Assembly: GCF_014202505.1 (NCBI RefSeq) | Contig: NZ_JACHGW010000001.1 | Span: 310,001 to 374,000 of the forward strand | Length of the DNA stretch: 64,000 nt | Reading direction: 5' to 3' | Source of the DNA: Armatimonas rosea | GTDB taxonomy: Bacteria > Armatimonadota > Armatimonadia > Armatimonadales > Armatimonadaceae | Shown here: piece after piece, positions 57,832-63,206 of the stretch | How the letters are laid out: the number at the start of each line of letters is the position of its first letter | Position numbering within the stretch: position 1 is the stretch's first letter | Translations under genes and position numbers: made by a program | The notes under the pieces: generated by a model | What the model was told of the DNA's origin: nothing | Database searches by the model: none | What the model saw: the letters and a program-made list of their open reading frames with translations, nothing else

Positions 57832-59241
57832 CTACAGGACAGCGGCGAGGAGCGCCTGCTGGACATGTAGGCGATTCTCGGCTTGGTCGAAGATGCCGGA
57901 CTGCGGGCTATCGACCGCGTCCTCGGTGATCTCCTCGCCGTAGTGGGCGGGGAGGCAGTGTAGGATCAGGGCATCCTCTTTGGCCTCCCGCAGTGTCTGG
58001 GGACCGATCTGGAAGCCGGCAAAGTCGGCGAGGCGCTTGGCCTTCTCGGCCTCCTGCCCCATCGAGGTCCAGACATCCGTGTAGAGCACATCGGCATCGT
58101 CGGCGGCGCGCACCGGGTCATGGACAATCTCAAACTCGGTGTTGTGCCAGGCGGCGAGCTCTTGTGCCTGCTGGATCAGGGGCGCGGGGGGCTCGTAGCC
58201 GGGCGGACAGGCGAGGGTGAAGTGTGTCCCGAGGCGCGGCGCCAGGAGCATCAGGCTGATGGCCGTGTTGCACCCATCGCCGATATAGACCAGCTTCTGG
58301 CCGCGGGTCTCCGAGCGGTACTCCAAGATGGTGTAAAAGTCTGCGAGTGCCTGGCAAGGATGCTCAAGGTCTGTCAGAGCATTGATCACCGGGACACGGG
58401 AGTAGTGCGCGAGCTCGGCGATATTGCGGTGCTCAAACGTGCGAATGATGATCGCATCCACCATCCGAGAGAGCACCCGTGCAGCGTCCTTGACCGACTC
58501 ACGCTGGCCCAGTCCGACCTCTTCTTTGGAAAAGTAGATCGCGTGTCCACCGAGGCGCTGCATCCCGACCGTGAACGAGAGCTTGGTGCGCAGGCTGGGC
58601 TTCTCAAAGAGCAGCGCCGCGCACTTGCCCGCCGCCACTTTCTGCGCCTTTCCGAGCTTGATCTCCCGGGTGAGGTCAAAGAGTTGCTCGATCTCATCGG
58701 TGGTGAGGTCGTTGACCGAGAGCAGGTGGCGTCCCTTGAGAAAGCCCGCACGGGGCATGGGGCGCGATACCAGGGGCTCGGGGGCGGGGTTGAACTCCTC
58801 GCTCAGCGCGCCGGCCATTCCCGACGAGAGCGCTTGGGCGACTCCTTCGTAGCTCAGGCCCACGCTCTCGACACTGGCCGGGGCCTCGTGGAGGAGCGCG
58901 AGCAGGAGGTGCTCGGTGCCGACATAGTCGTGACCGGTGGACTCGGTCTCCCGGCGCGCCTGCTCGACAATCTGCTTGGCGCTCGGCGAGAGCGTCGCGG
59001 ACTCGGTGCGGGCCGCGCCATTCTCGGGCTTAAGCAGGCCGGAGATGCGCAGGCGTAGCTCCTCGGGGGCGTAGCCGATCCGTGCCAGGAGCTGGAGGGC
59101 GCTGGTCTCCTCACCGTGCAGGAGCCCAAGGAGCAGGTGCTCCCGCTCCACGTAGTCATCGCCCCGCCGCATGGCCTCGACCTGTGCCCAGAGCATCGCT
59201 TTTCGTCCGTTGCGTGTAAATTGAATTGCCATACTTTTCAT
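57832..59241 (-). CDS. argF: Clp N-domain fused to ornithine carbamoyltransferase, 469 aa
   Basis: Residues ~5-145 are a double Clp N-terminal repeat (FTRNGRKAMLWAQVEAMRRGDDYVEREHLLLGLL; LSPSAKQIVEQARRETESTGHDYVGTEHLLLALL), as in ClpC/ClpA. Residues ~165-469 are a complete ornithine carbamoyltransferase: carbamoyl-phosphate site SLRT (216-219), IIIRT, HPCQ (294-297), VWTSMG and HCLP near the end. It converts ornithine and carbamoyl phosphate to citrulline. Normal OTC is ~310 aa, so the ~160-residue N-terminal module is extra. Start 59241 or 59232. The Clp domain usually binds adaptors or damaged proteins; here it may link arginine synthesis to proteolysis or to phospho-arginine signals. Confidence 0.93.
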   Translation of the reverse strand: MKSMAIQFTRNGRKAMLWAQVEAMRRGDDYVEREHLLLGLLHGEETSALQLLARIGYAPEELRLRISGLLKPENGAARTESATLSPSAKQIVEQARRETESTGHDYVGTEHLLLALLHEAPASVESVGLSYEGVAQALSSGMAGALSEEFNPAPEPLVSRPMPRAGFLKGRHLLSVNDLTTDEIEQLFDLTREIKLGKAQKVAAGKCAALLFEKPSLRTKLSFTVGMQRLGGHAIYFSKEEVGLGQRESVKDAARVLSRMVDAIIIRTFEHRNIAELAHYSRVPVINALTDLEHPCQALADFYTILEYRSETRGQKLVYIGDGCNTAISLMLLAPRLGTHFTLACPPGYEPPAPLIQQAQELAAWHNTEFEIVHDPVRAADDADVLYTDVWTSMGQEAEKAKRLADFAGFQIGPQTLREAKEDALILHCLPAHYGEEITEDAVDSPQSGIFDQAENRLHVQQALLAAVL

Positions 59242-59263: not shown

Positions 59264-59539
59264 CTAGTCTGTTTCTTCTACCCAGAGCTCCGCAGCCAAG
59301 GCGAGCGTATTGCCCAGCACCGGCTCTGTCTCCAGTATCTCCCAGACACGAGGCAGCACTTGCTCGGGCGCGTCTGCTTTTAGGAAGAGCAAGAGCGCGT
59401 TATCGTCCTCGTAGTCATAGCCATCCTCGTGGAGCTTGCCCTCACAGCGCTCACAGAGCAGGCGGGGCACCAGGTAGCGCAGATCCGCATCGGGGTTCGT
59501 GAGCTTCTCGGGGCGGAGCCTGAGGACGAGCGTGGGCAC
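59264..59539 (-). CDS. Hypothetical small acidic protein, 91 aa
   Basis: MPTLVLRLRPEKLTNPDADLRYLVPRLLCERCEGKL contains one CxxC pair. It is followed by an acidic strand-helix region (EDGYDYEDDNALLLFLKADAPEQVLPRVWEIL). Reminiscent of the Imm71-like or ferredoxin-fold 'cell-density' small proteins, but no family can be assigned. It sits between argD (3 bases) and argF (22 bases) and is surely co-transcribed, so a role tied to arginine synthesis or its control is plausible. Confidence 0.72.
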   Translation of the reverse strand: MPTLVLRLRPEKLTNPDADLRYLVPRLLCERCEGKLHEDGYDYEDDNALLLFLKADAPEQVLPRVWEILETEPVLGNTLALAAELWVEETD

Positions 59540-59542
59540 CGC

Positions 59543-60745
59543 TTAGCTTGCCTCTGCGTTTCGGATCGCCTTTTCCAGAAGATTCACCCCTTCGTCGGCT
59601 AATTCCTTGGTGAGGATCAGCGCGGGGATGATTCGCAGGGTCGTGTCTCCGGTGGCATTGATGATCAGGCCCAGCGCCAGCGCCTCGGACACTACTTTTT
59701 TTGCAATGGGTTTATCGAGCTCCAGCCCGATCATTAGCCCCATCCCACGCGGCGCTCCCAGCGAGGCAAGACGCTCTCTCAGATAGGCCCCGACGGTCGC
59801 GGCGTTCTGGGTCAGGCGCTCATCGGCGAGGATATCGAGCACGGCGTTGGCGGCGGCGGTGCAGAGGGGATTGCCTGCGAAGGTCGAGCCGTGGTCGCCG
59901 GGCTTGAGGGTCTCGGCGGCGGCTCCTCGGGCGAGGCACGCACCGATCGGAACTCCCCCGCCTAGCCCCTTGGCGAGGGTCATCACATCGGGGATCACGC
60001 CGTACTGCTGGTAGGCCCACATCTTGCCCGTCCGCCCGACTCCGGTCTGTACTTCGTCGAAGATCAGCAGGGCACCGTGCTTGTCGCAGAGCTCGCGAGC
60101 CTTGGCAAGGTACTCCGGCGTCGCGGGATGGACCCCGCTCTCGCCCTGGATCGGCTCTAAGAGCACCGCGCACGTGTTGTCGGTGACCGCGGCCTCCAGC
60201 GCCGCAATGTCATTAAACGGCACGTAGTCAAAGCCGGGCGGGAGCGGCGCAAAGGGCTCGTGGTACTTGGGCTGGCCGGTCGCGGTCACCGCCGCGAGGG
60301 TTCGCCCATGGAAGGAGTTGGTCGCGGTGACGATCCGTACCTTGCTCTCTGCAATGCTCCGCCCGTACTTTCGAGAGAGCTTGATCGCCGCCTCGTTGGC
60401 CTCCGCGCCGGAGTTGCAGAAGAACACGCGCTCAAAGTCCGAGAGCTCGATCAGCCGCCGCGCCAGCCGTGCTTGGGGCTGCGTGAGGTAGAGATTGCTG
60501 GCGTGCATCAGAGTCGCGGCCTGATCGGCAATCGCCTTGGTCAGATAGGGATGCGCGTGGCCCACGGAGCAGACCGCGATCCCCGAGAGAAAGTCCAGGT
60601 AGCGCTTGCCATCGGTGTCGAAGAGCCAGCAGCCCTCGCCGCGCACGAGCTCCACGGATTGCCGCGCGTAGGTGGTCATCACATGGGACTGGTCCCACTG
60701 CCGAGAGTCACTCTCGGTCTTCGTCGCTTCTGTCGTTGTTGTCAT
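59543..60745 (-). CDS. argD: Acetylornithine aminotransferase, 400 aa
   Basis: Start at 60745 (MTTTTEATKTESDSRQW) overlaps the upstream stop by 4 bases. Class III PLP aminotransferase: GSGIAV-type opening (DFLSGIAVCSVGHAHP), NSGAEANEAAIKLSRKY, SFHGRT, FDEVQTGVGRTG, PLP-Lys in TLAKGLGGGVPIGA, then HGSTFAGNPLCTAAANAV. It converts N-acetylglutamate semialdehyde to N-acetylornithine in arginine synthesis. Size and motifs are standard for ArgD. Its place between argB and argF supports this over other class III enzymes. Confidence 0.93.
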   Translation of the reverse strand: MTTTTEATKTESDSRQWDQSHVMTTYARQSVELVRGEGCWLFDTDGKRYLDFLSGIAVCSVGHAHPYLTKAIADQAATLMHASNLYLTQPQARLARRLIELSDFERVFFCNSGAEANEAAIKLSRKYGRSIAESKVRIVTATNSFHGRTLAAVTATGQPKYHEPFAPLPPGFDYVPFNDIAALEAAVTDNTCAVLLEPIQGESGVHPATPEYLAKARELCDKHGALLIFDEVQTGVGRTGKMWAYQQYGVIPDVMTLAKGLGGGVPIGACLARGAAAETLKPGDHGSTFAGNPLCTAAANAVLDILADERLTQNAATVGAYLRERLASLGAPRGMGLMIGLELDKPIAKKVVSEALALGLIINATGDTTLRIIPALILTKELADEGVNLLEKAIRNAEAS

Positions 60746-61386
60746 TTCGTGTTTTCCATGATCTCGGAGAGCCGCCGGGACGGTAAACGTCCGCACCCAA
60801 AGGGTACCCGGGGGCTTCGTTCCTCAGCCGCCTCGCTTCGCTCGGATTCTTTTAGTTTTGCGATTACTTTTTCCCGGCTCTCGGCGGGGATGTTTTGGGA
60901 GAGTTTGAACTTACCTTCGAGCCGCGAGATTTCTAGCTCCACACCCACGATTCCCTTAAGTTTGGGCGCGAAAAACGTATCGTCGTACGGGATTGGCTCC
61001 GGTTCGTAGTGCGCCTCCAGCGTGAGCAAGATTTTCGTGAGCGCCTCGGGCTCCGTGATGAGCTTGGGCTTCCCATACACGTGGACGGCGGTGTAGTTCC
61101 AGGTCGGGACGGCAGGTGCGTGGGTGTACCAGCGCGGCGAGATGTAGCCGTGCGGCCCGGTGAAGATCGCCAAGACGCTCTCAGTATTTGCCAAGTGCTC
61201 GCACTGCGGGTTGGCCTTGGCGAGGTGCCCGATCAGCGAGTTGGTCTCCGGCTGGTAGAGCAGCGGCAGGTGCGTCGCAAAGGGCTCGCCGTTGACAACT
61301 GTCACTAAGCTTGCAAAGCTATTGGCAAGGAGAAATGCCGTGAGCGCCTCGGGATCATCTACGCGAAAATGCGGTGGTATGTACAT
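60742..61386 (-). CDS. FMN-binding split-barrel protein (PaiB-like), 214 aa
   Basis: ATG 61386 begins MYIPPHFRVDDPEALTAFLLANSFASLVTVVNGEPFATHLPLL, the hallmark opening of PaiB/FMN-binding negative transcriptional regulators. IFTGPHGYISPRWYTHAPAVPTWNYTAVHVYG completes the family signature. PaiB proteins are ~205-210 aa. The last ~28 residues here (ERSPRVPFGCGRLPSRRLSEIM) are translated from a dispersed palindromic repeat. Role in Bacillus is regulatory; in this arginine operon it may be a flavin-linked enzyme or regulator. Gap of 1 base to the upstream GNAT gene. Confidence 0.9.
   Translation of the reverse strand: MYIPPHFRVDDPEALTAFLLANSFASLVTVVNGEPFATHLPLLYQPETNSLIGHLAKANPQCEHLANTESVLAIFTGPHGYISPRWYTHAPAVPTWNYTAVHVYGKPKLITEPEALTKILLTLEAHYEPEPIPYDDTFFAPKLKGIVGVELEISRLEGKFKLSQNIPAESREKVIAKLKESERSEAAEERSPRVPFGCGRLPSRRLSEIMENTK
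60777..60855. repeat. Dispersed repeat overlapping the 3' end of the paiB-like gene
   Basis: GGGACGGTAAACGTCCGCAC opens a ~40-nt block almost identical to 726-765 (same order, few substitutions). It is followed by TTCGTTCCTC...CTCGCTTCGCTCGGA, hairpin-rich. It is read in frame by the paiB-like gene. Confidence 0.8.
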
Positions 61387-61387
61387 C

Positions 61388-61882
61388 TTAGACCAGCCTC
61401 TTTTCCAAGTGTCCTGTTCGTACGGGCGTCCCATCTCGACAGACACTGTGCTCATCCACGAGAACAAAACCGCGCCGCAGGTACATGTTCAGATTCTTCT
61501 CGATCTCGATCCGCACCATGCAGGTGAGGCGTGTCGCTCCCGCCTGGTGTGCAATCTCTTCTAGCCTCTCTAACAGCAGAGTCGCGATTCCTTGGCGCTG
61601 AAACGAGGGACGAACCGCAAGCCGGGAGAAGTAGAGTGCATTGTCCTCAAACTGCCAGCGAACGGTAGCTGCGGGCCGCGAGTTTGCAAAGACGAGAAGG
61701 GCCTCGTAGCGTTTCTCCCCGAGTGCACAGTAAATGTCCCACGACTTCTCATCAAGCGCTGTGGAGCGAGGCTGAACCCCATTTTCGTCGTTGGCGTAGG
61801 CTTCCTGCAGCACAGACGCGATACTCATGGCGGCATCGGGTGTTGCAGTTGCTTCCCAAATTTTTAAGTTCTCTAGAGCCAT
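61388..61882 (-). CDS. GNAT-family acetyltransferase, 164 aa
   Basis: The GNAT core shows PAATVRWQFEDNALYFSRLAVRPSFQRQGIATLLLERLEEIAHQAG, with acetyl-CoA loop QRQGIA, then the strand LTCMVRIEIEKNLNMYLRRGFVLVDEH. Overlaps the other GNAT gene by 10 bases and lies between argB and argD. A single-domain GNAT in this location is a candidate N-acetylglutamate synthase or ornithine acetyltransferase substitute; sequence alone does not decide which of the two GNATs, if either. Confidence 0.88.
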   Translation of the reverse strand: MALENLKIWEATATPDAAMSIASVLQEAYANDENGVQPRSTALDEKSWDIYCALGEKRYEALLVFANSRPAATVRWQFEDNALYFSRLAVRPSFQRQGIATLLLERLEEIAHQAGATRLTCMVRIEIEKNLNMYLRRGFVLVDEHSVCRDGTPVRTGHLEKRLV

Positions 61883-62340
61883 TTTTCCATCACTCCCACG
61901 GGGATCACAAATCCGTTGCGCACCATCACATCCTCACCGTTTAGGGCGTAGCCGACACTCTCGTAGAGGGCGACATTGCGGCTGACCTTGGGCCGCACAT
62001 GACACCAGAGGCGCGACTTCTCGTGCGCTCGTCCCACTTCCTCCAGCCGTGCCAAGAGCGCCTTGGCGACTCCCTGCCGCCGCGCCGATGGCAAGACAGC
62101 AAGCCGGAAAAAATGCAGGCCGCGCCGGTCGAGCTCGTAGCGGACACAGCCCAAGGCCTTGCCGTCGCGCTCCGCCAGAAGCGCGTGGTGATTGCCTGCG
62201 GCCAGCTCTTTTACCACCTCCGCCTCGGTCTCAAAGAGCGCCGAGGGCGGCGGGACATCGCTGGCGTACTCCAGAAAGGCCGAGCGCGTGATGGCATAGA
62301 TCCGCCCGGCCTCGTCCGGCCGGGCGTCGCGAATCGTCAA
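61873..62340 (-). CDS. GNAT-family acetyltransferase, 155 aa
   Basis: TTG start one base after the argB stop. MTIRDARPDEAGRIYAITRSAFLEYASDVPPPSALFET opens a GNAT fold. The CoA loop is SARRQGVAKALLARLEEVGR, and the C-terminal strand-helix is VSRNVALYESVGYALNGEDVMV. Tight coupling with argB, whose substrate is N-acetylglutamate, makes this the more attractive candidate for a short N-acetylglutamate synthase. No argA, argJ or ArgB-fused GNAT lies in the window. The call of GNAT is firm; the pathway role is inference. Confidence 0.88.
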   Translation of the reverse strand: MTIRDARPDEAGRIYAITRSAFLEYASDVPPPSALFETEAEVVKELAAGNHHALLAERDGKALGCVRYELDRRGLHFFRLAVLPSARRQGVAKALLARLEEVGRAHEKSRLWCHVRPKVSRNVALYESVGYALNGEDVMVRNGFVIPVGVMEKWL

Positions 62341-62341
62341 C

Positions 62342-63190
62342 TCAGCGCACCATGGTCCCGATACCCGTGTCGGTGAAGAGCTCGATCAGCAGCGCATGGG
62401 CACGGCGACCGTCGATGATGTGTGCCCGCGGCACGCCGTCCTCGACTGCGCTTGCGCACGCCTCCAGCTTGGGGATCATCCCCTTGTCCACGATGCCGTC
62501 GGCGATCCACTGCCGCGCCTCACTAGCTGTGAGCTCGCTCACTAGGCTGCTCTTGTCCGAGAAGTCCCGGTAGAGGCCCTCGACATCGGTCATCAGGATC
62601 AGCTTCTCCGCATGGAGCGCCGCCGCCAGCGCCGCCGCGGCCGTGTCCGCGTTGACGTTGTACGCCTGCCCATCCGCGCCCACCGCCACCGATGAGATCA
62701 CCGGGATGTAGCCGCCGTTGGTGAGCGTGTGGATAATCTCCGGGTTCACGTGCGCGATCTTGCCCACAAATCCGATATCGCCGTTGTCGGTGTCCTTGGT
62801 GGCGATCAGCAGGTTCGCATCCTTCCCGGAAAGCCCGACCGCCTGCACCCCCTCGCCGTTGAGATGCGCGACAATGCTCTTGTTGGTCTTGCCCGTCAGC
62901 ACCATCTCCACGATCTCCATGGTCTCCGCATCGGTCACGCGCCGCCCCGCGACAAACTCCGGCTCCTTGCCCAGCTTCTTCATCGCCTCGTTGATCTCCG
63001 GCCCGCCGCCGTGCACGAGGATCGGGTTGATCCCGACCAGGCGCATCAGCACCAAGTCGCGCATCACCGCTTTCTTCAGCTCCTCGTCGATCATGGCATT
63101 GCCGCCGTACTTGATCACGATCGTCTTCCCGGCAAAGATCCGGATATAAGGCAGCGCCTGAATCAACGTCGCCGCAATCTGCTCTGGCAT
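62342..63190 (-). CDS. argB: Acetylglutamate kinase, 282 aa
   Basis: Start at ATG 63190, with GGAG 9 bases upstream (TTG 63193 also in frame). Amino-acid-kinase fold: TIVIKYGGNAM (phosphate-binding Lys), PILVHGGGPEINEAM, VAGRRVTDAETMEIVEMVL, NLNGEGVQAVGLSGKD, YNVNADTAAAALAAAL and LILMTDVEGLY. It phosphorylates N-acetylglutamate, the second step of arginine synthesis. The Gly-rich substrate motifs are intact. No N-terminal helix of the arginine-inhibited hexameric type longer than ~15 residues is seen, so feedback inhibition is uncertain. First gene of the arginine operon. Confidence 0.97.
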   Translation of the reverse strand: MPEQIAATLIQALPYIRIFAGKTIVIKYGGNAMIDEELKKAVMRDLVLMRLVGINPILVHGGGPEINEAMKKLGKEPEFVAGRRVTDAETMEIVEMVLTGKTNKSIVAHLNGEGVQAVGLSGKDANLLIATKDTDNGDIGFVGKIAHVNPEIIHTLTNGGYIPVISSVAVGADGQAYNVNADTAAAALAAALHAEKLILMTDVEGLYRDFSDKSSLVSELTASEARQWIADGIVDKGMIPKLEACASAVEDGVPRAHIIDGRRAHALLIELFTDTGIGTMVR

Positions 63191-63206
63191 CAAACATTTC
63201 TCCTAC

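Follow-up and report, generated by a model that had tools for sequence, protein, structure and literature searches.

The receptor domains of AAA+ proteases have so far been known from these proteases and from a few free homologues. A gene of Armatimonas rosea raises the question of why such a domain, a Clp-N domain of the ClpC type, should be carried by ornithine carbamoyltransferase (OTC), a core enzyme of the arginine pathway. The gene lies in a 64,000-nucleotide stretch of the genome, referred to here as the window, and the initial annotation of this stretch read it as a complete fusion that suggests a regulatory link between arginine metabolism and protein quality control. Below, we ask whether the fusion is genuine, how widely it occurs, where its N-terminal module comes from and what that module might do.

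A complete OTC with a ClpC-type N-domain

The gene occupies positions 57832-59241 on the minus strand as a single open frame of 469 codons without a stop, encoding a Clp-N domain, a linker and OTC (argF). Translation probably begins at 59232, nine bases downstream of the start first given, yielding 466 residues; this start is preferred because relatives begin with MAIQF or MWQRF and because GGCGGG lies just upstream. The double Clp-N domain (58807-59232, minus strand; residues 4-145 of the 469-residue frame) matches Pfam Clp_N (PF02861) in two tandem stretches (E 1.6e-15; 57.4 bits against a gathering score of 20.7). Among solved structures, those nearest to residues 1-145 are N-domains of ClpC (PDB, E about 1e-17), one of them being 5hbn with bound phosphoarginine. 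No AAA domain is matched in Pfam and OTC follows directly after the Clp-N part, so the protein is not a ClpC unfoldase with two AAA+ modules and a middle domain.

The OTC domain (57835-58737, minus strand; residues 169-469) is complete. Firstly, the C-terminal 300 residues score 357 bits against the full-length NCBIfam equivalog TIGR00658 (cut-off 280.85), and both Pfam OTC domains are matched (182 and 169 bits). Secondly, the motifs FEKPSLRT, HPCQ, DVWTSMG and HCLP are intact, in columns that are invariant or nearly so among relatives. Finally, an AlphaFold2 model built from 23 aligned sequences (mean pLDDT 85.9) contains two folded parts separated by a disordered stretch at residues 140-158 of the 466-residue form, and its best Foldseek matches are OTCs, led by 1a1s (E 5.6e-35). 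The predicted fold resembles the anabolic OTC ArgF (1a1s, 4nf2) with a TM-score of 0.93-0.95 over the target, differing from it by the additional N-terminal Clp-N domain and linker of about 165 residues. The flexible linker itself (58759-58815, minus strand; residues 143-161) is predicted to be disordered (pLDDT below 50) and is weakly constrained (dN/dS 0.38).

The claim of a complete fusion, with two Clp-N repeats and an intact enzyme in one frame, is thus borne out. The fusion is not a sequencing artefact, since the same frame is intact in the relative G001 (92% identity) and in other families, all from independent genomes. A separate OTC translated from an internal start, in a protein whose fusion is unconserved in relatives, had been named as what would refute the fusion. 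This reading is rejected: the internal ATG nearest the OTC, at residue 162, is not accompanied by a Shine-Dalgarno-like sequence, relatives have no methionine at the same place, and the fusion recurs in relatives as described below.

The protein is probably the working OTC of the cell, predicted to form citrulline. The genome has no second OTC; the next carbamoyltransferase match is 28% identical. One strand carries, in order, argB (acetylglutamate kinase; 62342-63193, minus strand; TIGR00761, 280 bits), two acetyltransferase-like genes, an FMN-binding-like gene, argD (acetylornithine aminotransferase; 59543-60796, minus strand; TIGR00707, 521 bits), a 91-residue ORF (59264-59539, minus strand) and the fusion. 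argD is the next upstream enzyme gene, and neighbourhood comparison places it ahead of Clp-N/OTC in many Armatimonadota genomes; the 91-residue ORF has no Pfam or NCBIfam match and is absent at the same place in G001. The two genes between argB and argD (60742-62340, minus strand) are different, tandem GNAT acetyltransferase-like genes that adjoin a gene for a PaiB-like FMN-binding protein. Clp-N occurs in just two other proteins of this genome, ClpC and a ClpB-like ATPase, so the domain is not generally promiscuous there.

Distribution of the link across Armatimonadota

We searched 291 Armatimonadota genomes and read the OTC loci of 123 of them in DNA. Clp-N is linked to OTC, either fused or as an adjacent separate gene, in 42 of the 123 genomes and 13 of the 33 families. 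Fusions account for 38 genomes, a count in which G002 is inferred from parts at contig ends and the draft frames of G006 and G016 are broken. The search for further Clp-N/OTC fusions that the initial annotation called for finds the architecture conserved in relatives. The break in G006 (L014/L080) falls close to OTC residue 389 in query numbering, after which the protein resumes in a different frame; an assembly error may be the cause. Four more genomes (G019, G033, G046 and G088) carry a separate Clp-N gene directly upstream of OTC. Separate genes lie between argD and OTC at L022, L031 and L237 and just before OTC at L032, and physical fusion is therefore not the sole form of the link. Many Armatimonadota families have an unlinked OTC. 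Searches of 151 Chloroflexota and 199 Bacillota genomes gave no Clp-N/OTC fusion, and none was present among those OTC loci from outside the phylum that were listed in a GTDB scan.

The number of modules and their companions vary. An extra Clp-N copy stands ahead of the fusion at L017, L041, L043 and L045, a free Clp-N gene precedes the fusion in family f7, and two Clp-N doublets precede OTC within one protein in family f4; G038 (family f19) has three. In family f2 (L021, from G017), the stretch between Clp-N and OTC resembles the leading portion of type II secretion/pilus ATPases (Pfam T2SSE, 50 bits) and is devoid of their ATPase core. A similar domain follows Clp-N in G014 (L285:1639-2538), there without OTC, as read by eye only. 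Two further G017 frames, likewise read from the sequence by eye, fuse Clp-N to a cytochrome P450-like protein (L283:1109-2953) and a sigma factor-like protein (L281:304-1914), and the domain seems mobile in the family of this genome.

Clp-N often stands at the argD-OTC junction, a position that would suit a structural or chaperone-like aid to OTC folding, assembly or association with ArgD that involves no regulation by ClpC. ArgD is itself fused to OTC, instead of Clp-N, in other lineages (L018, L019, L073, L074 and L075; frames of 704-866 residues), which fall into two groups, one being family f14 and the other a single genus within the window's own family. The loss of the pocket glutamates from some modules (the f4 doublets) also suits such a role. 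We nevertheless consider a purely structural part improbable, because a separate Clp-N gene replaces the fused one in some genomes and because the module has been copied repeatedly from the resident ClpC, rather than drifting as one old module.

Selection and origin of the Clp-N module

Between G000 and G001, dN/dS is 0.059 for Clp-N and 0.057 for OTC, as against 0.377 for the linker, and Clp-N values in four other pairs range from 0.056 to 0.171. A ratio as low as that of the enzyme indicates that Clp-N is a working part rather than a remnant.

In a tree of N-domains, the OTC-linked modules are intermixed with those of ClpC, with placements beside the ClpC of the same lineage, and the AU test rejects a tree in which 34 linked modules are constrained to one group apart from 16 ClpC N-domains (p 0.000126). 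At the DNA level, the fused module of G017 is 93.2% identical to its own clpC over 440 nt, and that of G038 is 81% identical to its own over 444 bases. The Clp-N domain of the window fusion has no DNA match to its own clpC, and the modules of the window's family have diverged far from ClpC in the tree. On the OTC tree, the link must have been gained or lost at least 15 times; for the fused state, well-supported branches alone demand no fewer than seven changes. A single ancient fusion inherited only vertically is thus rejected as the sole history, both by the AU test and by these changes.

Since the linked modules fail to group as a single clade and the G017 module is so close in DNA to its own clpC, comparison of the sequences indicates that OTC repeatedly acquired, or was converted by, the N-domain of the resident ClpC; recurrent capture and gene conversion would each account for the ClpC-like modules. 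The Clp-N/OTC architecture is real, selected, widespread in Armatimonadota and repeatedly renewed from ClpC. The module shares the double Clp-N fold of ClpC N-domains (B. subtilis ClpC/MecB, 5hbn; mycobacterial ClpC1), tree and DNA identity showing its descent from them or its conversion by them, and it differs in having no AAA+ modules and in being attached to an enzyme. Both parts of the protein belong to known families; their combination and its recurrence appear undescribed, and the fusion is unreported, in the open-access literature searched.

What the tethered domain may do

We infer the function of the fused Clp-N domain from sequence and from what is known of its ClpC counterpart, with ClpC residue numbers following a B. 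subtilis ClpC reference sequence, used for numbering only. In the window protein, Glu34 (59140-59142, minus strand) and Glu110 (58912-58914, minus strand; both in 469-residue numbering) align with ClpC E32 and E106, marking putative phosphoarginine sites 2 and 1, respectively. ClpC needs both glutamates for phosphoarginine (PMC12583610). The equivalents are kept in 31 of 32 and 32 of 32 fused modules, a pattern that is not diagnostic because ClpB has them too. The arginines of ClpC at 9 and 83 are lost in the window's family, where position 9 is N in all members and position 83 is S, V, T, G or A; R83 was placed at a site by a pseudo-symmetry reading rather than from a structure file. As a set, the pocket columns show no greater conservation than the remaining columns conserved in ClpC (p = 0.22), so that no significant enrichment of the phosphoarginine pocket is seen. 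The suggested comparison of binding sites with ClpC therefore yields a divided answer: the glutamates support recognition of phosphoarginine, while the arginine positions, the pocket columns and the occurrence of the same glutamates in ClpB do not.

These pockets bear on the possibility that Clp-N is a small-molecule sensor, its glutamates binding arginine or phosphoarginine to exert allosteric feedback on OTC at the citrulline step without any protease. Free phosphoarginine does act on ClpC through the N-domain, with E106 needed above all (PMC12583610), the glutamates are kept in nearly all fused modules, and the enzyme belongs to the arginine pathway and adjoins argD. A long disordered linker is, however, untypical of tight allostery, and the residue pattern set out above, with R9 and R83 lost and the pocket not specially conserved, fits poorly; we regard a sensor as unlikely.

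A gene of the McsB/guanido-kinase family, which includes the arginine kinase McsB, is present in the window genome, and among near-complete genomes McsB occurs in 29 of 33 with the link versus 41 of 68 without it (Fisher p 0.005, phylogeny not removed); among independent phylogenetic pairs, the association is not significant. Four genomes that keep the link (G019, G033, G088 and G231; 92-97% complete) have no McsB. A dependence of the link on McsB is suggestive only, and these four genomes further weaken the phosphoarginine basis of the original proposal. What is supported of that proposal is a conserved ClpC-type module on OTC, in a genome that also has ClpC and a McsB-family kinase.

The reading that we favour, at a probability of roughly 0.45, is that Clp-N serves OTC as a docking receptor, placing the enzyme in the ClpC/ClpP regulatory network. 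It is preferred because of what has been copied: in ClpC, the N-domain takes up adaptors and substrates phosphorylated on arginine, and free phosphoarginine bound to it helps ClpC to leave its resting state (PMC12583610). Each OTC subunit would bear a tethered copy of this domain, which would bind whatever ClpC N-domains bind: adaptors, proteins that are unfolded or phosphorylated on arginine, or the ClpC protein. The amount or activity of OTC would then follow the state of protein quality control, possibly through adaptor-dependent delivery of OTC to ClpCP or through competition for adaptors. Partner binding, the direction of the effect and its signal are all postulated here. Degradation by ClpCP of the related carbamoyltransferase PyrB during starvation of B. 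subtilis (PMC5746743) sets a precedent for the direction that such control might take.

Several lines of sequence evidence suggest docking, namely the linkage in 42 of 123 genomes, the constraint on Clp-N matching that on OTC, the repeated copying of the ClpC N-domain, the presence of ClpC and a McsB-family kinase in the window genome and the co-occurrence of McsB before correction for phylogeny. Because it is the resident N-domain that has been acquired time and again, ClpC-type binding appears to matter. In G029, the gene adjoining argD (L067:2586-4055) encodes Clp-N joined to an OTC-like domain that has lost the catalytic motifs, as expected of a regulatory part, and a different contig (L029) carries an intact OTC that is not fused. 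Against docking stand the four linked genomes that have no McsB, the loss of significance of the McsB association once phylogeny is removed, the many unlinked families and the divergence of Clp-N in the window's family. In view of the P450-like and sigma factor-like fusions of G017, the module may also serve a broader purpose.

Those same unrelated carriers would also suit a decoy, with OTC merely the abundant bearer of a sponge that shields ClpC from toxins or phage proteins. Mycobacterial ClpC2, a partial ClpC homologue that titrates cyclomarin A away from ClpC1 (PMC10030653), likewise presents a ClpC-type N-domain outside the ClpC ATPase, and a decoy would require just such recurrent copying from ClpC. 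ClpC2 differs in having its own non-homologous N-terminal region and in repressing its own gene, whereas the partner here is a metabolic enzyme. A decoy leaves unexplained both the recurrence of OTC across 13 families and the dead OTC carrier of G029, and we think it very unlikely.

The docking receptor reading can be taken one step further, to a ClpC N-domain copied repeatedly onto or beside one enzyme so as to couple arginine supply to quality control based on arginine phosphorylation, a form of the proposal that we hold to be rather doubtful. In Armatimonadota, a core metabolic enzyme has Clp-N as a part that recurs and is under selection. Should this domain bind the partners of ClpC, OTC would contain a switch between the synthesis of amino acids and proteolysis. 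The independent recaptures would serve as natural replicates showing which surfaces of the ClpC N-domain are needed, and arginine synthesis may be wired to protein quality control through a single OTC.
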